Below, piece by piece: positions 1 through 10,063 of a DNA stretch of 11,882 nt (positions within the stretch are counted from its first letter, which is position 1; the number at the start of each line of letters is the position of its first letter). The stretch lies in contig JABMOJ010000325.1 of NCBI GenBank assembly GCA_013204195.1, forward strand, positions 1 through 11,882. The letters run 5' to 3'. Position numbers and translations under genes: made by a program. This DNA is from SAR86 cluster bacterium (GTDB taxonomy: Bacteria; Pseudomonadota; Gammaproteobacteria; Pseudomonadales; Azotimanducaceae). Below the pieces are notes generated by a model, which had not been told where the DNA came from, made no database searches, and saw nothing but the letters and a program-made list of their open reading frames with translations.

Positions 1-1475
1 TCCAGCATAAGGAACACCGCTTGTTGAGTTATGCGCTCGGCTATAAAGGCCAGATTTTGCTAGATAATGGGGAGCATGACGCCGCCTTACCCTTGCTGCA
101 AGCGGCGACTTTTTATGCAAACGATAGTCTGGCTTATGAAAGCGCTTATCTATGGGAATGGCAGCTAGCTCGAGCCAGCGCTCAGTCGGGACAGATCGCC
201 GAGGCTATCCAGGAATACTATCGAGCGATACGAACTCTTGAGCCTGTGCGCCAGTCACTCATTGACGGCTCTCCCTTCACTTTTTATCAGAAGATTCAGC
301 CGTTGTTTACAGAACTGTCGAGTTTGTTGTTAGATGCGGCTAGTCAGAGCGTGGGTGATGAGCAGCAGTCCTACTTGCAACAGGTTCAGGTCGTACTTGA
401 GCAGGCCAAGTCTGCTGAGCTGCAGGACTATTTTCAGAACGACTGCGTCATTCCAGACAAGACACTAGAGCTAAATAATATTGAGCCAGCAACCGCAGTG
501 CTTTATCCGGTTATCCTCGCAGATAAATTATCTTTGTTGGTTAATATTGGTGACAAAGTACATTTATATACCACGCCGGTGGAGAAGGCCGAATTTGATG
601 CGTTGGTAAACGAGTTTCGTTATGTGATTCAAAGTGATCTAGGAGATGACGACTATCTTGAGTTAGGCGAGGAGATTTATCATTTATTGATAAAACAGGC
701 GGAACCATTACTTGAAAAAAATCAAGTAACCACGCTTTTGTTTGTGCCCGATGGTGTATTGCGAACGGTTCCAATGGCAGCACTTTATGACGGCGAACAA
801 TTTTTAGTTGAAAAGTACGCCATTGCCACAACACCCGGCGTCAGTATAACGATGCCTGCGCCTTTAGATGCACGATTGCCCAATTTTTTTGCAGGAGGTG
901 TTTCAGAATCCGTCCAGGGTATGGCTGGTTTGCCGGGCGTGACGGGGGAGCTGCTTAACCTAGAAACGCACTATCGTGCGTCTACTTTGCAAGATACGAG
1001 CTTTCTAGCTGCGGATGTGAGTGCTGAGTTGGCTTCAACAAAATACTCTATTTTTCATATTGCTACCCATGGGCATTTTGACAGTAACCCACAAAAGTCC
1101 TTTTTGTTAGCCTATGACAAAAAGCTAACAATGGACGTTCTGTCGCAAAGCATCGCTAGCCGTCAAGCCAGTGATCAACCGCTCGAACTCCTGGTTTTAA
1201 GCGCTTGCGAATCGGCGGCCGGCGATCAGCGAGCCGCGCTTGGTTTGGCCGGTGTTGCATTGAAAGCTGGTGCGCGTAGTGCCTTGGCGACGTTGTGGGA
1301 GATCAGTGATTCAGCAACAGTAGAAATTATTAATACTTTCTATCAACAGATATCGGTTCAAGGTGTGACTAAAGCTCAGGCGTTACGAACAGCCCAAATG
1401 CGCCTGATTACTCAACCTCGCTTCAGTCATCCGAACTATTGGGCGCCGTACATGTTAATCGGCAATTGGTTATGA
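1..1475 (+). CDS. TPR/CHAT-domain protein, caspase-like cysteine peptidase (5' partial)
   Basis: This is the C-terminal part of a CHAT protein (caspase HetF-associated with TPRs). The reading frame stays open to base 3 with no stop and no good start, so the gene begins outside the window; the TTG at 21 is not a credible start. Numbering from base 21, residues 1-130 are helical and TPR-like, followed by a YFQNDCV segment typical of CHAT proteins. The CHAT domain covers about residues 155-484. The expected catalytic pair is present: His350 in IATHGHF (codon 1068-1070) and Cys396 in LSACES (codon 1206-1208). The C-terminal NYWAPYMLIG block is also typical of the family. These proteins belong to the caspase-like clan, and peptidase activity is inferred from the intact dyad. 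The stop overlaps the downstream tpsB start as ATGA. Whether it has a signal peptide cannot be seen, so its compartment is unknown. Substrate unknown; the linked adhesin is a candidate by context only. Confidence 0.9.
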   Translation, partial: QHKEHRLLSYALGYKGQILLDNGEHDAALPLLQAATFYANDSLAYESAYLWEWQLARASAQSGQIAEAIQEYYRAIRTLEPVRQSLIDGSPFTFYQKIQPLFTELSSLLLDAASQSVGDEQQSYLQQVQVVLEQAKSAELQDYFQNDCVIPDKTLELNNIEPATAVLYPVILADKLSLLVNIGDKVHLYTTPVEKAEFDALVNEFRYVIQSDLGDDDYLELGEEIYHLLIKQAEPLLEKNQVTTLLFVPDGVLRTVPMAALYDGEQFLVEKYAIATTPGVSITMPAPLDARLPNFFAGGVSESVQGMAGLPGVTGELLNLETHYRASTLQDTSFLAADVSAELASTKYSIFHIATHGHFDSNPQKSFLLAYDKKLTMDVLSQSIASRQASDQPLELLVLSACESAAGDQRAALGLAGVALKAGARSALATLWEISDSATVEIINTFYQQISVQGVTKAQALRTAQMRLITQPRFSHPNYWAPYMLIGNWL

Positions 1476-3118
1476 GGCGTCTACTGCGATTATGCGTTGT
1501 CGGCTGTATGCTGAGCACGCATGTGCTTCATGCTGACGCTGTTGTCGACGCGAAGACCGCTGTGGATGCAGTAACGCGCCTCGATGGCGTTGTACTAACG
1601 TCCGTTGTTTGTGAGCTAGACACTAGCGATGAGCTGGCGCCGTCAAACGCGTTAATGGGGGCGATCGAAGGCGAATATTCTCAGTGTGTCGTTGGTAACT
1701 TGGCCGACGATGTTGAGCACATTATTGCTGACTATCTGCAGGTCTCTGTCGGTGTCGATGATTTATTAACGATGAAAAATCGATTGAATCAGCTTTATGC
1801 GGTTAACGGCTATATCAACACCGGCGTCCAAATTCCGAATCAGGAAATTACAGAGGGTATGTTGAGACTTGTGTTGACGCCTGGTCGACTGTTAACCATG
1901 ACGATTGCCAGTGACTTAAGAGATCGCTATATCACAGGGCGGCTGCGCCTCAATCAACCCTTTAATTTGGTAGAACTTCAAGCTCAGTTAAAACTATTGG
2001 AGCAAGATCAACGAATTACCCGTATCGATGCCCGAGTTGAACCGACGGGTGTGGCTGGTAGTGCCGCATTGCTGCTTGTCGCAGATACGGTGCCCAGGTT
2101 TGCGATTGGTGTCAGCCTTGCTAACGATAGGTCTCCGTCTATTGGCTCGAACAATACTCGCTTACAGATGGAGGCAAATAACCTCACTGGTTGGGGCGAT
2201 GCTTTGCAAGGCTCTGTGTCAACAACTCAAGGACTCGATGCCATTGATGTTCGATACAGTTTGCCTCTGACGTTCAGTGATCTAACCGTAACGTTCGAGC
2301 ATAGCCGCAGTGATTCGTCTGTTATCGAACAGCCTTTTGCGGATTTAGATGTTGATAGCGAGACCGAGAGTTCAGGTATCGTGTTTAACTGGCCGGTGAT
2401 CAGCGAGTTAGACTCATCCTTGTCCTTGGGTTTGGCGTTCGAGTCGCGACGTAATCAAACGTCGTTGCTCGGGCAGGCATTTTCTTTTTCGGAAGGTGCG
2501 CTAGACGGAGAAAGCCGTGTGACGCCAGCTAGGCTCTCTGTGAACTATGCGGTGCAAGGGTTAGCGGCGTCATTGGCGGCAAAGTTGACCGTTTCTCATG
2601 GCACCCGCGCGCTTCAGCCGACAGTGGATGATCCTAGCAGCGCAGGGCCAGATGGAAGCTTTACCGCGTATCTCGCTCAGGTGCAGTATGCGCGCATGTT
2701 GACCGACCGATTCTACGTCACGGCTAAAGTGCTCGGCCAGTATTCAGCGAGTACATTACTCTCGGTTGAAAAATTCGCCCTAGGTGGTGTTGGTTCTGTT
2801 CGTGGTTACAGGCAAAACCAAATTGTGCGAGACAATGCCTTGTTATTCTCAGTCGAAAGCAACTATCGCTTTGAGGCTTTGCCTGGGTTCGAAATTGTCG
2901 CGTTTTATGATTGGGGTAGTGGTGAAAATGCCTCTGGCAGCGTCAGCCTCGGTAGAGATACGATTTCTAGTCTGGGCGCTGGTATCGCCTATAGCGTCGC
3001 GAATGGGTTCAGTGCTGAGCTGTATGTGGCTCACGGCTTTACAGATTTCGCAGTTGAAAATCGGAATTTACAAGATGACGGCATCCACTTCAGGTTGAGC
3101 TATGACTATAAATTTTAA
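1472..3118 (+). CDS. TpsB two-partner secretion transporter, ShlB/FhaC/HecB family
   Basis: Outer-membrane Omp85-superfamily pore that exports a TpsA partner across the outer membrane. I place the start at ATG 1472 (548 aa), not the in-frame TTG at 1439. The ATG overlaps the previous stop as ATGA and begins directly with a signal peptide: two arginines, a hydrophobic core, and cleavage near HADA. Residues about 38-145 form a POTRA_2 domain (GYINTGVQIP and the following TPGR segment). A second POTRA lies at about 145-205, and the 16-strand barrel follows. The conserved loop-6 motif VRGY is at residues 443-446 within GGVGSVRGYR. The protein ends in an aromatic-rich beta-signal with terminal Phe, as expected for a barrel inserted by BAM. 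Length is normal for TpsB. No strong ribosome-binding site was seen, so translation is probably coupled to the CHAT gene. Two cysteines, 47 and 72, sit in the first POTRA region and could form a disulfide. Confidence 0.93.
   Translation: MRRLLRLCVVGCMLSTHVLHADAVVDAKTAVDAVTRLDGVVLTSVVCELDTSDELAPSNALMGAIEGEYSQCVVGNLADDVEHIIADYLQVSVGVDDLLTMKNRLNQLYAVNGYINTGVQIPNQEITEGMLRLVLTPGRLLTMTIASDLRDRYITGRLRLNQPFNLVELQAQLKLLEQDQRITRIDARVEPTGVAGSAALLLVADTVPRFAIGVSLANDRSPSIGSNNTRLQMEANNLTGWGDALQGSVSTTQGLDAIDVRYSLPLTFSDLTVTFEHSRSDSSVIEQPFADLDVDSETESSGIVFNWPVISELDSSLSLGLAFESRRNQTSLLGQAFSFSEGALDGESRVTPARLSVNYAVQGLAASLAAKLTVSHGTRALQPTVDDPSSAGPDGSFTAYLAQVQYARMLTDRFYVTAKVLGQYSASTLLSVEKFALGGVGSVRGYRQNQIVRDNALLFSVESNYRFEALPGFEIVAFYDWGSGENASGSVSLGRDTISSLGAGIAYSVANGFSAELYVAHGFTDFAVENRNLQDDGIHFRLSYDYKF
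3092..3104 (+). promoter_or_regulatory. Ribosome binding site of tpsA inside tpsB
   Basis: The AGG at 3092-3094 lies 7 nt before ATG 3102, inside the last codons of tpsB. This supports ATG 3102 as the true tpsA start and the 17-nt gene overlap. The same ATG is followed directly by a plausible signal peptide. Confidence 0.55.
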
Positions 3119-6100
3119 TTTTCAGCGACTCAGACGTTGCAGCGTGCGTAGCACATTGTTTCTGGCCCTCGTGACACTGTCAAATGGGTCTTTTTGTAGT
3201 GTTGTGCTTGACGGTTCTATGGGCGGACTGCCAAATCAAATCGTCAGTGCTGGTAATGGAGCGACTTACAATATCACTGCCAATCTTGGCCAAACTCGGG
3301 GTGCAAATTTGTTCCATAGCTTTTCGACGTTTGATGTCGGTGGTAGTGAAATTGCGAATTTTTCTGGTCCTAGCAGTATTTCTAATATTATCGCGCGTGT
3401 AACGAGCGGCCAAAATTCAACAATAGCCGGTCAGGTTCGCGCCAGTATCGATCAGGCAAACTTGTGGTTGATCAACCCAGCGGGAATTATCTTTGGCAAT
3501 GGCGCTGTAGTTGACGTCAGCGGTAGCTTCAATCTCTCTACTAGTGATTTTGTCAATTTTGTTGATGGGTCACGTTTCTATTCCCAATTGTCGCCCGCAT
3601 CAACCTTGTCTACAGCGGCTATCAGTAGTTTCGGTTTTCTTGGTGCTAGCCACGGAGCGGTCTCTTTCAACAGCGACCCTGATGTCGTGGCTAGTGTGGT
3701 CGAAGCCTCGCAAAACGTCTATGTCGGCGCGCAGACAATCGCTCTAGATCAGGTCAACATTTTTGCGCAAGAAGTGGAAGTGTCGACGGGGGCTAAGACC
3801 GTGGGCAGCATTACGCTGAACCAGGCTTCGCTGCAGGCGGTTGAGGGTAAGGTAATATTCCTCGGTGGCCAGGTGAGCGCAGTGGATTCCTTTATTAGTG
3901 CTGCGGGCAAAGACAGCGGTATTGATATTCAGTCCAACGCTATCCTGTTAAGAGGCGCATCCGGTACGAGTGTGATTAGTTCAGGCAATTTGCAAGCCAG
4001 TGGCGGCGACATATTGCTGCAAGCGGACAAGATCCAGCTTAGTAATAATGCTCAGCTCATTTCTTCTTCTGGCGGAGAAAGATCCGGTGGGAATATCGGT
4101 TTGATCAGTAAGAATATTCTCGTTGATTCAGGCAGCGTGATCGAGTTAGCCAGTGGCGAGGGTTCTAGAGCCGGTAATCTCACCATTGATACCGACAACT
4201 TCCTGCTCCGGAATAATTCCAGCCTTAACACCTCGAGTGAGTTTGCTAGGGCCACGGCGGGAAGTATCACGATTGATGCGACTAGCCGTTTCGGCATTGA
4301 GAATAATAGTCAGTTGCTCGCGACTTCTGTAATTTCAGGCGATGGTGGCAAAGTCTCAGTGTCAGCAGATACCATCGTGCTGCGATCGCAATCGGCCATC
4401 GACGTGAAAACCGAAGGCGCTGGGAATGCTAATCTCGTCGACCTTGTGGCTACGACGAGTATTACTATTGACCAGCAGTCGACCTTAAATGCGAGCACTA
4501 GTGGTATTGGTAACGGTGGTGACGTCCGGCTGACAGCGCCGATAATTAATATCGATGATAGCGATATAGTAGGCGCGGTGAGCGGTTTAGGTGCCGGCGG
4601 TGATATTTTCTTGATCGGTGACGCCGTGAATATCAGCGGGGGCTCTACCTTTAATGTGTCGTCTTTGGCCCCTGGAGCGGTTGGCGGAAATGCCGGGCTG
4701 ATTGATATAAAGTCGGGGTCGGTCTCGGTCTCTGGTGGCTCAAGATTTCAGTTGGTGAGTGTCGGTGCGGGGCAGGCGGGACGGTTGAAGCTCGAAGCGA
4801 CCAGTATCAATTTCACGGATTCGGCTATTGAAGCCGAAGCCAGAAACAAAGGGTTAGGTGGCGATATCGTCATGTTGGCAGACGTCATTGACTGGGACGG
4901 TGTGCAGGTGGATGCCAGTGTCGCTGGCGAGGGTAGCGGGGGATTTTTGTCTCTGTTAGGTGGCACTGTGGAGTTGAAAAATTCATTTGTGAATATCACC
5001 GCTGCCGGACTCGGTGGTGGTGGCAGGTTTCGTTCTGTAGCCGATTCCTTCACATCGTCAACCACGGCTATTGTGTCGAACACCAGCGGTGCGGGTGCCG
5101 GCGGCAGCGTCGCTATTGAGGCCACTAGCATTAATTTGTTAGCGGGAACGACCCTCACGGCAGGCAGTACCGGCCGAGGCAATGCCGGTGCAGTTACGCT
5201 CGCTGCAGGTACGTTTAACATGGTTGCCGCGTCTATTTTGACCGATGCGCGTGGTGCTGGCGATGGTGGTAGGGTGAAGATAGATGCCGATGTTTTCTCA
5301 ATGACAGAGGATGCCGCTATTCGCAGTAATTCCTTTGATACCGGCGTCGGTGGGGACATCAAGCTGAATGCCGCAGATATGCACCTAAGTGCGGCGATTG
5401 TTCATGCGCTGGGCTTTGGTTTGGGCGATGCGGGTCAAATCAGTCTCGTGGCCACTGACCTGGTGGTGACTGATGAGAGTTCGATTAATGTATCGGCCTT
5501 CATTGGCGAGAGCCAGGGTGGGCGCATCACGCTTGAGGCGGATACTATAGCGATTGATCATAGTGATTTTCTGTCAGATACGGCAAGCGCTGGACTGGGT
5601 GGCGATATTGTTATCACGGGTACGCTGATCGATTTGTTGGCCGGTACTAGCCTTAAGGCCCAGACGTTGGGTCGTGGCAATGCGGGTAATATTTTTGTCA
5701 CTGCTGATACCCTCAATGTCGCTGGTGCAGCATTGATTACTAACTCAAGAGGCGAGGGCAATGGCGGTGGTGTCGCGATTGATGCGACTAACTTCACCAT
5801 GACAGACTTGGCCACCATTAGAAGTTACGCCTTGGGTACTGGTTCGGGCGGCAATGTGAGCATTACAGCCACAGAACTATCAATGAGTAACGCCGGTATT
5901 AATGCCCTGACGAATGGCGATGGTGATGGCGGTGTCGTCAATCTTGAGGCAACTAACCTGAGCTTGACTGCTGGTGTTTCACTCAATGTCTCGTCAAACG
6001 TTGGTTCTGGTGACGCCGGGCGTATCGACCTGACGGCTGAAAATATTGTAATCGATCAGAGTCGTCTGCTATCGAACACTTCAGCCTTGGGTCGCGGGGG

Positions 6101-7271
6101 TAACATCACCTTGACTGGGACAAATATTGAATTGCGGGCTGATGCGAGTTTGAACGCTGAAACCTTTGGCAGTGGCGACGCTGGTGGCATTGTACTGGTT
6201 GGCGAATCAGTCAGCCTGGTTGGCAGTTCAGTGAATACAACGTCAACGGGCGCGGGTAACGGCGGACGGGTAGGAATTGACGCGGCGAGTGTTACGCTGG
6301 CCGATGCTGCGGCGATACGCAGTGACGCTTTAGGGGCGGGGTCGGGCGGTAATGTGACAGTAGTGGCCACAGAATTATCGGTCAGCGACTCTGGTATCGA
6401 TGCCTTAACCCGGGGTGATGGCAGTGGCGGTGTGGTAGCGCTGACTGCGGCGAATCTGACGCTAAAAGAAGATGCTGTGGTTAATGTTTCTTCTCTTGGT
6501 GGTACGGGTGATGCAGGGCGCATTGAAATCGCCGCCGACACTTTGCTGATTGACCACAGTCGTCTGTCGTCAGATACCACAGGCCCAGGGCTCGGCGGTG
6601 ATTTGACGTTAACCAGCACCAGCATGAGTCTGCTGAATGAGGCGCTGATTTCTTCCTCGGCTTCAGGCGTTGCTAATGCAGGTCGAGTTAACTTGATCGC
6701 AGCAGATCGGTTCACGGCAGTTGATGCTACGGTCCAGACTGTGGCGTTAAAATCAGGCGGCGGTAGTATCCTTATCAGTGCAGTGGAACGTATAGAGATT
6801 GATAATAGCGTAGTCTCTGCTTCAGCCAGTGGGGTTAAGTCTGGAGATGATGGCGGCAACGTTACGATTGACCCGGTGCTGTTCACGCTCAGGCAAAGTC
6901 AAATCGTGGCACAGGCGAATGTCGGAGATGGTGGTAATATTTTGCTGGTGGCAGAAAACTTTGTTGCGGATACACAAACGCTGATCTCAGCGTCATCGCA
7001 ACAGGGGATTGACGGACTAGTGGCGATCGAGTCGCCCAATCAAGCGGTGAATCCTACGAGTGCAAATCTGAATACCGGATTTCAGGATTTATCAGAGTTT
7101 ATCAGTCGGCGTTGCAGTACCGAAAAATTGGAAGGCCGCAGTTATCTGGTTGTTGAAAATATGAACCCAGTTCGCCAAAATCCGAACGATTACCTAACGC
7201 TGGGCCCACGGTTAGCGCGATCCGCCACCGCGGCTAATGACGGCATGGCTCCTTGGCAGCCAGGCTGCTAG
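3102..7271 (+). CDS. TpsA exoprotein: filamentous-haemagglutinin N-domain, beta-solenoid adhesin
   Basis: Secreted or surface protein exported by the adjacent TpsB; adhesion is inferred from the family. The 1389 aa begin with an N-terminal signal segment (arginine-rich, then LFLALVTL), with cleavage probably near residues 30-34. The TPS haemagglutinin-activity domain covers about 34-270. Its conserved blocks are RGANLFHSFSTFDVG (residues 66-80), SNIIARVT (94-101) and LINPAGIIFG (123-132), where the usual NPNGI is NPAGI. Residues 301-1304 form about 36 glycine-delimited turns of mostly 27-29 residues, each opening GG or AG, a pattern expected of a right-handed beta-helix. Residues 667-1164 are three indel-free 166-residue super-repeats. 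The C-terminal tail has a GIDG block (1302-1305), then Cys1338 and the terminal Cys1389. These are the only cysteines outside the signal region. The blocks resemble cyanobacterial-type TpsA proteins as I remember them. No C-terminal toxin domain is visible. Confidence 0.93.
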   Translation: MTINFNFQRLRRCSVRSTLFLALVTLSNGSFCSVVLDGSMGGLPNQIVSAGNGATYNITANLGQTRGANLFHSFSTFDVGGSEIANFSGPSSISNIIARVTSGQNSTIAGQVRASIDQANLWLINPAGIIFGNGAVVDVSGSFNLSTSDFVNFVDGSRFYSQLSPASTLSTAAISSFGFLGASHGAVSFNSDPDVVASVVEASQNVYVGAQTIALDQVNIFAQEVEVSTGAKTVGSITLNQASLQAVEGKVIFLGGQVSAVDSFISAAGKDSGIDIQSNAILLRGASGTSVISSGNLQASGGDILLQADKIQLSNNAQLISSSGGERSGGNIGLISKNILVDSGSVIELASGEGSRAGNLTIDTDNFLLRNNSSLNTSSEFARATAGSITIDATSRFGIENNSQLLATSVISGDGGKVSVSADTIVLRSQSAIDVKTEGAGNANLVDLVATTSITIDQQSTLNASTSGIGNGGDVRLTAPIINIDDSDIVGAVSGLGAGGDIFLIGDAVNISGGSTFNVSSLAPGAVGGNAGLIDIKSGSVSVSGGSRFQLVSVGAGQAGRLKLEATSINFTDSAIEAEARNKGLGGDIVMLADVIDWDGVQVDASVAGEGSGGFLSLLGGTVELKNSFVNITAAGLGGGGRFRSVADSFTSSTTAIVSNTSGAGAGGSVAIEATSINLLAGTTLTAGSTGRGNAGAVTLAAGTFNMVAASILTDARGAGDGGRVKIDADVFSMTEDAAIRSNSFDTGVGGDIKLNAADMHLSAAIVHALGFGLGDAGQISLVATDLVVTDESSINVSAFIGESQGGRITLEADTIAIDHSDFLSDTASAGLGGDIVITGTLIDLLAGTSLKAQTLGRGNAGNIFVTADTLNVAGAALITNSRGEGNGGGVAIDATNFTMTDLATIRSYALGTGSGGNVSITATELSMSNAGINALTNGDGDGGVVNLEATNLSLTAGVSLNVSSNVGSGDAGRIDLTAENIVIDQSRLLSNTSALGRGGNITLTGTNIELRADASLNAETFGSGDAGGIVLVGESVSLVGSSVNTTSTGAGNGGRVGIDAASVTLADAAAIRSDALGAGSGGNVTVVATELSVSDSGIDALTRGDGSGGVVALTAANLTLKEDAVVNVSSLGGTGDAGRIEIAADTLLIDHSRLSSDTTGPGLGGDLTLTSTSMSLLNEALISSSASGVANAGRVNLIAADRFTAVDATVQTVALKSGGGSILISAVERIEIDNSVVSASASGVKSGDDGGNVTIDPVLFTLRQSQIVAQANVGDGGNILLVAENFVADTQTLISASSQQGIDGLVAIESPNQAVNPTSANLNTGFQDLSEFISRRCSTEKLEGRSYLVVENMNPVRQNPNDYLTLGPRLARSATAANDGMAPWQPGC
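4002..7013 (+). repeat. Beta-solenoid turn array in TpsA (about 36 turns of 26-32 aa)
   Basis: Reading residues 301-1304, nearly every turn starts GG or AG followed by alternating hydrophobic residues, and ends in a glycine-rich loop such as GRGN, GEGN or GDGD. I divided it by eye into seven turns (301-498), six turns (499-666, 168 aa), eighteen turns (667-1164) and five more (1165-1304). At a standard beta-helix rise of about 4.8 angstrom per turn this would give a rod of roughly 17 nm. That length is inference and assumes one coil per turn. Confidence 0.75.
5100..6593 (+). repeat. Three in-frame 498-bp (166-aa) super-repeats in tpsA
   Basis: The units are 5100-5597, 5598-6095 and 6096-6593 (residues 667-832, 833-998, 999-1164). 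Each has exactly 166 residues, and units 1 and 2 align with no gap, as do units 2 and 3. Unit 2 divides into six turns of 28, 27, 28, 27, 29 and 27 residues. By hand count units 1 and 2 share 75 of 166 residues and units 2 and 3 share 88 of 166. Diagnostic blocks recurring at the same offset include LAGT, GRGNAG, AIRS or TIRS, ATEL and IDHS or IDQS. The preceding 168-aa block (4596-5099) looks like a more diverged relative, and the block after 6593 like a degenerate partial copy. The DNA has diverged, so this is an old duplication. Confidence 0.85.
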
Positions 7272-7384
7272 TTGTCGGAGCTGTTGGGGCCGTTGGTTCT
7301 GCGGCAAGCTCGCAGGTTCTCAAGTCACAAACCATTATTTGAAAAGTAGATAAGTCCGCTTTAGCGTGGGCTTTAACTGCTCGC

Positions 7385-7427
7385 AAAAAAAACCGTCAGT
7401 ACCTTTTGAGTTAAGGCGCTGACGGTT
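7385..7427 (-). terminator. Intrinsic terminator of acnB
   Basis: A 9-bp perfect stem is formed by 7391-7399 and 7419-7427 (AACCGTCAG against CTGACGGTT). The loop contains a second short pairing, CCTT 7402-7405 with AAGG 7413-7416. On the minus strand the hairpin is followed by a run of eight T (complement of A 7385-7392), about 60 nt after the acnB stop. On the plus strand no T run follows, so it acts for acnB only. Confidence 0.88.
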
Positions 7428-7486
7428 AATGTCTGATGCTATGTAACCGCAGAGCAGGCGCCCGGCGGTTACAACTACAAGACCGC

Positions 7487-10063
7487 TTATGCGACGTTGA
7501 CGATATTCACCGCAGGTATCACCGCAGTATCAGCTGATTTCTGGAACGCTTCAATCTGATCGAAGTTCAGGTAGCGATAGATCTCGCTAGCCATCGTGTC
7601 GAGTTCTTGCATATGTTCCAGGTATTCGGCGACGGTGGGCAGGCGACCGAGTATCGCGGCGATCGCAGCCAATTCAGCTGACGCGAGATAAACATTAGCC
7701 CCATCACCTAACCGGTTCGGAAAGTTTCGGGTTGACGTCGACACACAGGTGGACTTGGGCGCGATGCGCGCCTGATTGCCCATGCACAGCGAACAACCTG
7801 GCATTTCCGTACGAGCGCCGGCGGCGGCGAAGATGTTGTAGATACCTTCCTCGCGAAGCTGATGCTCGTCCATCTTAGTGGGTGGTGAGATCCACAGACG
7901 GGTCGGGATGCCGCTGGTTTTATTTAACAGCTGAGCTGCCGCGCGGAAGTGACCGATGTTGGTCATGCAAGAACCGATAAAGACTTCGTCGATCTTGGTG
8001 CCGGTCACTTCGGATAACGGCTTCACATCATCCGGGTCATTCGGGCAGGCTAACAATGGCTCTTTGATATCATCTAGATTGATCTCGATAATTTCTTTGT
8101 ACTCTGCATCAGCATCCGGTTCCATCAATACAGGATTAGCGAGCCATTCTTGCATTGCAGTGATACGTCGACCGATGGTGCGGGCGTCGCCATAACCTTC
8201 GCTGATCATCCACTTCAACAGGGTTACGTTGGAGTTCATGTATTCGATGATCGGTGCCTTGCCCAAGCGAATCGTACAACCACCGGCAGAGCGTTCGGCA
8301 GACGCGTCGCTGATTTCGAAAGCTTGCTCAACTTTCAAGTCAGGCAGCCCTTCAATCTCGAGAATGCGACCTGAGAAAATATTCTTCTTCCCTTCTTTGG
8401 CGACCGTTAATAAACCGCTTTGAATTGCCGCGTAAGGAATCGCGTTCACCAGGTCGCGCAGAGTGATACCGGGTTGCATGGTGCCTTTAAAACGGACCAG
8501 TACAGACTCAGGCATATCCAGCGGCATCACACCGATGGCAGAAGCGAAGGCCACTAACCCTGAACCCGCGGGAAAGCTGATGCCCATGGGAAAGCGCGTA
8601 TGTGAGTCGCCGCCGGTACCCACTGTATCGGGTAACAACATACGATTCAGCCAAGAGTGGATGATACCGTCGCCAGGACGCAAAGCAACGCCGCCGCGAG
8701 TCTGGATAAAGTCTGGCAGGGTGTGCTGAGTGTCGATATCAACAGGTTTAGGATAAGCCGCTGTGTGGCAGAAAGACTGCATCACCAAGTCCGCAGAGAA
8801 GCCCAGGCAGGCGAGTTCTTTCAACTCGTCGCGAGTCATGGGGCCAGTGGTGTCCTGCGAGCCCACAGTAGTCATCTTCGGTTCGCAATAGGTGCCAGGC
8901 CGTACGCCAACCACACCACAAGCCTTGCCGACAATTTTTTGCGCCAGAGTAAAACCTTTGGTCGAGGCTTGCGCCGGTACTGGGCGTCTGAAGATCTCGT
9001 TCTGAGGCATGCCCAGGGTTTCTCGAGCTCGTTCGGTCAGGCCACGGCCAATGATCAAGGGGATACGACCGCCAGCTTGAACTTCGTCTAACAACACTTC
9101 GGTAGCGAGTTCGAATTCGGCAATCACTTCGCCAGTCTTATCGCTGGTGACCTTGCCTTCATAGGGATGGATCACGATCACATCACCGGTTTCCATCTTG
9201 CTGACGTCACATTCGATGGGCAGGGCGCCAGCATCTTCCATCGTGTTGAAGAAGATGGGGGCGATCTTACTGCCCAGCACAACGCCACCATCACGCTTGT
9301 TAGGGATGTTGGGGATATCGTCGCCCATATGCCAAAGCACTGAGTTGGTGGCTGATTTCCGTGATGACCCGGTACCGACCACGTCGCCTACATAGGCAAT
9401 CGGGTTGCCGGTTTGCTTCAGCTGCTCGATCGTCTGAATCGGGTTTTCCATGGTCTTTTGTAACATGGCAAGTGCATGCAGCGGGATATCTGGGCGGCTC
9501 CAGGCGTCGCCAGCTGGAGACAGGTCATCGGTGTTGGTTTCGCCATCAACCTTGAAGACGGTGACTTTGATTTGGTCGGCGACTTTCGGCTTGGCCATAA
9601 ACCACTCGGCATTCGCCCAGGACTCAACCACGCGCTTAGCATGAGCATTGGTCTTGGCTTTCTCCACAACATCATGGAAGGCATCAAACATCAGCAGGGT
9701 GCGTGATAGAGCTGCTGCTGCGGCGTCAGCGGTTTCAGCGTCGTCCAACAAGTCGATCAGCGGTTCAATATTGTAGCCGCCGAGCATGGTGCCCAGTAGT
9801 GTCGTGGCATCGACCTTACTGATCATTGGCGAGCTATCAACGCCCTTGGCGATGGCGGTGAGAAAGGCAGCCTTGACATAGGCGGCGTCGTCAACGCCGG
9901 CAGGCACTCGATTAGTGATCAGGTCGAGCAGAAACTCGCCTTCACCGGCGGGTGGCGCTTTTAAAAGTTCAACCAACTCGTTAACCTGTGCGGCAGTGAG
10001 TGGCTTCGGGTCGATACCCATTTCTAATCGTTCGGCGACGTGTTGTCGATAAGCTTCAAGCAC
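7487..10063 (-). CDS. acnB: Bifunctional aconitate hydratase 2 / 2-methylisocitrate dehydratase (AcnB)
   Basis: Cytosolic [4Fe-4S] enzyme of the TCA cycle that interconverts citrate and isocitrate through cis-aconitate. The family also dehydrates 2-methylisocitrate. The architecture is AcnB-type: an N-terminal HEAT-like domain (about residues 1-155), then the swivel domain (about 165-370, with [16 protein letters not shown]), then the catalytic domain. In the 863-aa frame counted from ATG 10078, the cluster ligands are Cys704 (GSCMTNIGH) and Cys762 and Cys765 ([10 protein letters not shown]). These match the E. coli AcnB spacing. I prefer the GTG at 10063 (858 aa): it gives [12 protein letters not shown], aligned with the usual AcnB N-terminus, and has GAGGA 8 nt upstream. 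The ATG at 10078 lacks a Shine-Dalgarno and adds only five residues. The gene is divergent from miaE and convergent with tpsA, with its own terminator. Confidence 0.97.

Follow-up and report, generated by a model that had tools for sequence, protein, structure and literature searches.

In two-partner secretion (TPS, type Vb), the outer-membrane transporter TpsB passes the exoprotein TpsA outward N-terminus first, and the C-terminus of a TPS exoprotein may be retained or removed, as in the maturation of Bordetella FhaB (SphB1, CtpA) and the C-terminal disulphide anchor of HMW1. In type IX secretion, the exported caspase-fold protease PorU acts on the conserved C-terminus of its cargo and joins the cargo to a surface molecule. 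LapG, which trims a TPS adhesin, belongs to the Peptidase_C93 family. To our knowledge, few substrates of CHAT proteases are known outside CRISPR systems. According to the available excerpts of PMC4694147 and PMC11898600, periplasmic LapG cuts CdrA, a TPS cargo of Pseudomonas aeruginosa, near its C-terminus, and CdrA truncated so that it lacks the C-terminal cysteine is always released. The CHAT protease Csx29 makes a single cut and is inactive until switched, as described in the accessible part of PMC10028731. Here we describe a stretch of 11,882 nucleotides (the window; contig JABMOJ010000325.1 of assembly GCA_013204195.1, SAR86 cluster bacterium), in which a gene for a CHAT protease is followed by tpsB and tpsA.

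CHAT proteins of the type found in the window are kept with one type of adhesin tail across several phyla, which suggests a dedicated enzyme acting on that tail. On balance, with a probability of roughly 0.55, we propose that this CHAT is exported and, as a protease of the caspase fold, dedicated to TpsAs bearing a particular C-terminal module, and that it would process this module and thereby control retention or release of the adhesin. The preliminary description of the locus had taken CHAT for a dedicated partner of the adhesin that might mature it, shed it or respond to failed secretion. The partnership is supported by genetic linkage, gene fusions, correlated trees and co-occurrence at the genome level, and the cysteine-bearing module at the TpsA C-terminus favours, as far as sequences can tell, control of retention or release among these roles.

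The secretion pair of the window is of the two-partner type: tpsB (1472..3118, + strand) encodes the outer-membrane transporter with POTRA_2 and a ShlB barrel by profile match, and tpsA (3102..7271, +) a filamentous-haemagglutinin-type exoprotein of 1389 amino acids with an N-terminal TPS domain (3240..3887, +, 104.5 bits). The CHAT gene (3..1475, +) is open at the first bases of the contig, and because the window is one entire contig of a draft genome, approximately 262 N-terminal residues are absent (compared with a relative of 752 amino acids at L033/L053, 87% identical). The remaining 490 amino acids comprise a TPR region followed by the CHAT domain (residues 220-488), which matches Pfam CHAT PF12770 with 174.7 bits (cut-off 24). 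The gene overlaps reported in the preliminary description are borne out by the coordinates: the stop codon of CHAT (TGA, 1473-1475) and the ATG of tpsB (1472-1474) share the four nucleotides ATGA (1472..1475, +), and the ATG of tpsA at 3102 precedes the tpsB stop (3116-3118), which gives an overlap of 17 nucleotides (3102..3118, +). With an alternative TTG start of tpsB at 1439, the overlap with CHAT would be 37 nucleotides; either start is possible. The overlaps make a single message for CHAT, tpsB and tpsA probable. Promoter- and terminator-like sites occur at chance level (terminator-like sites in 1-7600: 7 found, 7.1 expected).

The tail of CHAT-linked TpsAs carries a module of about 73 residues, which consists of the last turn of the beta-helix followed by a cysteine, the motif SSF and often a GRGGLP box. 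In the window, the model built from alignment A2 matches at 6981..7196 (+). Of the 40 TpsA frames that are linked to CHAT and include a C-terminus, some of which were used to build the module model, 35 are matched by it. Among the five without a match, three are fragments of interrupted frames (L058, L060, L064), one has two cysteines and the motif discernible by eye (L088), and the last is L086. Alignments A2 and A4 (built from 17 and 29 frames) were selected by the cysteine motif, which 34 of 65 TPS frames contain (the remainder are in many cases cut at a contig end or pieces of interrupted genes); the module cysteine is therefore invariant in both by selection. The TpsA of the window has cysteines at positions 13 and 32 near the N-terminus, at 1338 in the module (7113..7115, +) and at 1389, the last residue (7266..7268, +), and no others. 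Cys1338 and Cys1389 thus form a pair at the exoprotein C-terminus as in the CdrA-type hook and may be joined by a putative disulphide. A second cysteine near the C-terminus is found in 22 of the 29 aligned tails, and in the TpsAs inspected the spacing between the two C-terminal cysteines is 34 to 97 residues. In the AlphaFold model of TpsA, a beta-helix predicted with confidence is followed by a tail of low confidence. The TPS domain is the sole Pfam match in the window's TpsA, and NCBIfam profiles recognise only the N-terminal adhesin domain in this protein, in the TpsA of L085 and in the fused protein of L036.

Module and CHAT co-occur across genomes. In the phylum of the cyanobacterium Stenomitos (G301, the genome of locus L119), all 28 module-bearing genomes out of 117 encode a full-length CHAT of the window's clade, which is present in 31 (Fisher p 6e-24), and none of the 86 genomes without it has the module. 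The CHAT-positive set was defined by a best E-value of at most 1e-130 and holds 31 of 39 matching genomes, the other eight having best E-values between 1e-66 and 1e-83. A link between CHAT and haemagglutinin genes in cyanobacteria, mentioned in the preliminary description, thus holds at the genome level. In an even draw of 229 genomes from the window's class, the clade CHAT, counted here as matches of at least 150 bits, is present in 15 genomes, among them 11 of the 13 with the module (Fisher p 6e-14; two of the 13, G173 and G198, are weak module matches with E 4e-4). Restricted to the 79 genomes with a TPS domain among the matches listed, 10 of 11 module genomes have the clade CHAT. Module copies can be numerous, with 36 matches in Candidatus Halobeggiatoa HSG11 (G291, the genome of L091) and 23 in Symploca (G297, L106).

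The copy numbers bear on the idea that CHAT is a sortase-like transpeptidase, which would cut the module and, like PorU, join the adhesin to a surface molecule. Modules outnumber CHATs in G089 and G374 (9 vs 3 each) and in G397 (16 vs 7), as is usual for sorting signals, and a box of the RG-LP type occurs in many tails and fusions. The ratio is reversed, however, in G366 (5 modules vs 13 CHAT matches, other CHAT types counted), and the window's clade has the box in degenerate form; we give this idea little credence. That one CHAT serves many TpsAs was dropped as a general rule, because the numbers of modules and CHATs vary both ways.

Near the window's own lineage, 58 genomes (its own and 57 relatives) were searched for CHAT, the TPS domain and POTRA_2, and chosen regions were read. 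CHATs of the window's clade, recognised by the motif DYFxxxC, lie beside or are fused to a TPS gene in 11 of 11 cases (the window and 10 in relatives). The orders are CHAT-TpsB-TpsA, TpsA-CHAT-TpsB, CHAT-TpsA-TpsB, CHAT-X-TpsA-TpsB, and TpsB followed by a TpsA::CHAT fusion. Among the other, large CHATs (673-1321 amino acids, some cut by contig ends), none of the 12 is encoded on a contig that has a TPS or POTRA_2 match. The second CHAT of the window's genome (L148, G000:C519, 77-3898 -; 1273 amino acids) is of this other type and lacks the DYFxxxC cysteine; no TPS or POTRA_2 match lies on its contig, and large CHATs resembling it occur in several relatives. The genome also encodes a second POTRA_2 protein (G000:C399:857-1072 -), on whose contig there is no TPS-domain or CHAT match of that genome. 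Individual loci show further genes. In the closest relative, a gene for a subtilase (Peptidase_S8) is located upstream of CHAT in the same orientation (L033, 10768-12000 -); at L042, a 1363-amino-acid FG-GAP repeat protein is encoded between CHAT and TpsA (4932-9023 +); at L037, CHAT is split over two frames (6020-8263 -) by a frameshift or assembly error, and TpsA is in two frames as well.

A wider survey of named genomes covered the best 80 of 531 confirmed CHAT relatives, picked by similarity to the window's CHAT, with TpsA and TpsB detected by models built in this analysis. TpsA or TpsB lies within 5 kb of CHAT at 58 of the 80 loci (both at 28), and at 27 of the 35 where both flanks of CHAT reach at least 5 kb. 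At 38 of the 80 loci, CHAT is followed within 5 kb by a TPS gene in the same orientation; the two genes overlap or are within 20 nucleotides of each other in 25 of these cases, so the adjacency exceeds chance. According to the record titles, linked loci include Gammaproteobacteria, Verrucomicrobia, Desulfobacterales, Nitrospirae and cyanobacteria. Two cultured marine isolates, Haliea salexigens DSM 19537 (L066) and Parahaliea mediterranea DSM 21924 (L070), have the cassette in the order CHAT-tpsA-tpsB. At the other 22 loci no TPS gene is found within 5 kb, and 18 of these 22 genomes have the TpsA tail module elsewhere. Conserved adjacency of the three families, as suggested in the preliminary description, therefore stands as linkage but not as a fixed operon, since the genes occur in permuted orders and 22 of the 80 loci are unlinked. 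A plain chance neighbourhood was set aside in view of the permuted orders, the fusions and the co-occurrence without linkage. Searches of one open-access library, which leaves most subscription journals uncovered, brought up no paper on a CHAT-TpsA pairing among the records listed.

The missing N-terminus of the window's CHAT can be judged from its relatives. Of 76 related CHAT frames that include a 5' end, 69 have a signal-peptide-like start, that is, a hydrophobic segment and an A-x-A-like site within the first 75 residues, as against 7 of 76 for residues 100-175 of the same frames used as a hydropathy control. The count, which includes three fused proteins, is based on hydropathy and a permissive A-x-A pattern rather than on SignalP. 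The seven CHATs without such a start are the interrupted frame of L060, the fused proteins of L104 and L112, and L074, L094, L115 and L120. A 5' signal peptide or membrane anchor, raised as a point to check in the preliminary description, is thus answered in relatives by a signal-peptide-like segment. Because of these N-termini, the idea that CHAT is a stress or death protease of the cytoplasm was set aside.

With the fused protein of L036 as query, 2056 proteins were retrieved, and in 52 of the best 120 the TPS and CHAT domains are part of one chain. In a tree of 192 CHATs, from which 12 separate CHATs bearing remnants of the module were omitted, the fused or separate state requires 7 changes compared with about 49 for shuffled labels; the state is therefore mostly inherited, with several switches. 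The frequency of single chains among the listed homologues could mean that CHAT is itself cargo, an effector that uses the TPS route for display or secretion, in which case the fused form would be the original one. This is very improbable, since separate CHATs mostly have a signal-peptide-like start of their own and the window's CHAT has no TPS-domain match in Pfam.

The trees of the three proteins were compared at 26 of the 80 loci, those with all three usable pieces. The correlation is highest between CHAT and TpsB (r 0.87), compared with 0.65 between TpsB and the TPS domain, which are known partners, and 0.67 between CHAT and the TPS domain; common descent accounts for part of the correlation between the CHAT and TpsB trees. 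The good match to TpsB would also suit a quality-control protease that clears the periplasm of TpsA or TpsB that has stalled or misfolded, as would a signal-peptide-like start in relatives and a gene alongside those of the secretion pair. For a general clean-up protease, however, coupling and fusion to a single type of TpsA tail would be unexpected, and we consider this role improbable.

The AlphaFold model of CHAT has a mean predicted local distance difference test (pLDDT) score of 87, and its best match in the PDB is the TPR-CHAT protein Csx29, followed by DdvA, separase and SAVED-CHAT; confidence is low in the loop around Cys148 and just after Cys402. The His/Cys pair described earlier is present as His356 (CAT, 1068..1070, +; ATHGHF) and Cys402 (TGC, 1206..1208, +; LSACES), the latter having been numbered Cys396 by counting from the TTG at base 21. 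This dyad is invariant in alignments A1 (8 rows) and A3 (17 rows), and proteolytic activity is predicted. A further, non-catalytic cysteine, Cys148 (444..446, +), belongs to the motif DYFxxxC, which is conserved in the TPS-linked clade: all 82 frames of the clade, from the window and the 80 loci, have it, and it is absent from the 23 other CHAT matches in relatives, which include fragments. In many CHATs of the clade, including that of the window, this cysteine and the catalytic one are the only cysteines beyond residue 40; others have more. All 52 fusions among the best 120 listed homologues retain the module cysteine, the DYFxxxC cysteine and the catalytic cysteine, and 35 of the 52 have no other cysteine beyond residue 45. 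In an exported one-chain fusion, the module cysteine and the DYFxxxC cysteine would form a natural disulphide pair, and in two-chain systems the same bond may join TpsA to CHAT or help to open the TpsA hook.

The conserved cysteines, together with the position of Cys148 in a low-confidence loop, would also be expected if CHAT were mainly an anchor, a bulky periplasmic cork bound through a disulphide between Cys148 and the module cysteine, with the fusions as its peptide-bonded form and proteolysis secondary or serving release only. A pure cork would not need the dyad, however, which is invariant in the 17 aligned clade members, and a second cysteine of their own is already available to most aligned TpsA tails; we regard a mainly anchoring function as unlikely.

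Dedicated processing of the module by CHAT could proceed as follows. Since TpsA is exported N-terminus first, its flexible C-terminal tail would be the last part to arrive and could stay at or behind the pore. What holds the tail there may be a disulphide hook between Cys1338 and Cys1389 or a bond to Cys148 of CHAT. In the periplasm and upon some trigger, the dyad His356/Cys402 would then act at or beside the module, with the GRGGLP-like box as a candidate site, and the action of CHAT would decide whether the adhesin is tethered, trimmed or released. We infer the module as substrate, its cleavage, the disulphides and the direction of the effect from what the sequences support, namely the linkage, the fusions, the signal-peptide-like N-termini of relatives, the intact dyad, the co-occurrence of module and CHAT and the conserved cysteines. 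A more far-reaching version is tentative and rather doubtful: the GRGGLP/Cys module could be a sorting signal read by an exported TPR-CHAT protein, its cysteine being disulphide-linked to that of DYFxxxC, so that the protease would be both tether and release blade, the fusions a one-chain version, and the whole a widespread, unrecognised outer-membrane pathway.

Several observations weigh against such processing. At L086, CHAT has a neighbouring TpsA that lacks the module. Of the 22 places in the class draw where CHAT scores 150 bits or more, just 9 have a TPS gene among the matches listed on their contig, the contigs being short; of the 13 genomes in this draw that have the module, 2 lack the clade CHAT. 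Conversely, CHAT occurs without a detected module in 4 of 22 named, 3 of 31 cyanobacterial and 4 of 15 genomes of the class, and the co-occurrence tests ignore shared ancestry. Relatives also have TPS genes without CHAT in the stretch fetched, of which only L135 shows its C-terminus, and this lacks the module. The TpsA of L135 (2569-6633 -) ends in a close cysteine pair (1314, 1326) resembling a short hook. Within the window's own clade the GRGGLP box shows no conservation, for which reason Arg-Gly cleavage was dropped as a fixed rule. A second cysteine is missing in 7 of the 29 aligned tails, five of them, by record title, from Beggiatoa, Thioploca or other Thiotrichaceae-type sulphur bacteria, and the intramolecular two-cysteine hook was consequently dropped as a universal feature.

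C-terminal processing is favoured because the parts list resembles that of CdrA and LapG, with another class of enzyme encoded beside the presumed substrate. As described in the available excerpts on CdrA/CdrB and LapG (LapD), that system also combines a TPS adhesin, C-terminal cysteines thought to hook it to the pore, and C-terminal cutting by a periplasmic protease. In contrast to LapG, the protease here is a CHAT encoded with or fused to the adhesin, and membership of the LapG family was rejected by the profiles, which assign the protease to CHAT. Peptidase_C93 (PF06035) has no match in the window's genome, which is 87% complete. Among the genomes surveyed near the window, matched by hand, it is found in 2 of 10 with a cassette or fusion vs 22 of 48 others, and with a Fisher p of 0.17 mutual exclusion with LapG is not claimed. 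The TPR-CHAT architecture and fold are shared with Csx29 of the type III-E CRISPR system Craspase. Unlike Csx29, an RNA-switched partner of Cas7-11, the CHATs described here have a signal-peptide-like start in relatives, and membership was rejected by NCBIfam NF041237 (27.4 bits, cut-off 300). The FhaB and HMW1 systems differ in using other types of protease and no CHAT, and PorU differs in family and secretion route. A loose outside hint comes from phage-resistant mutants of Nostoc, in which, according to the accessible part of PMC10811720, a CHAT gene was mutated in one strain (together with a second mutation) and a filamentous-haemagglutinin gene in another. Downstream of the cassette, the window carries acnB, miaE and a metallophosphoesterase gene, which are seemingly unrelated to it.

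For an entire clade of CHAT proteins, with members in cultured marine isolates, the analysis offers candidates for the substrate and the site as well as a recognition module. If the proposed role is correct, CHAT would be an operon-encoded, caspase-fold counterpart to LapG in the control of surface adhesins. It would then be relevant to sulphur bacteria, cyanobacteria and marine gammaproteobacteria, in which aggregation and filament contact matter.

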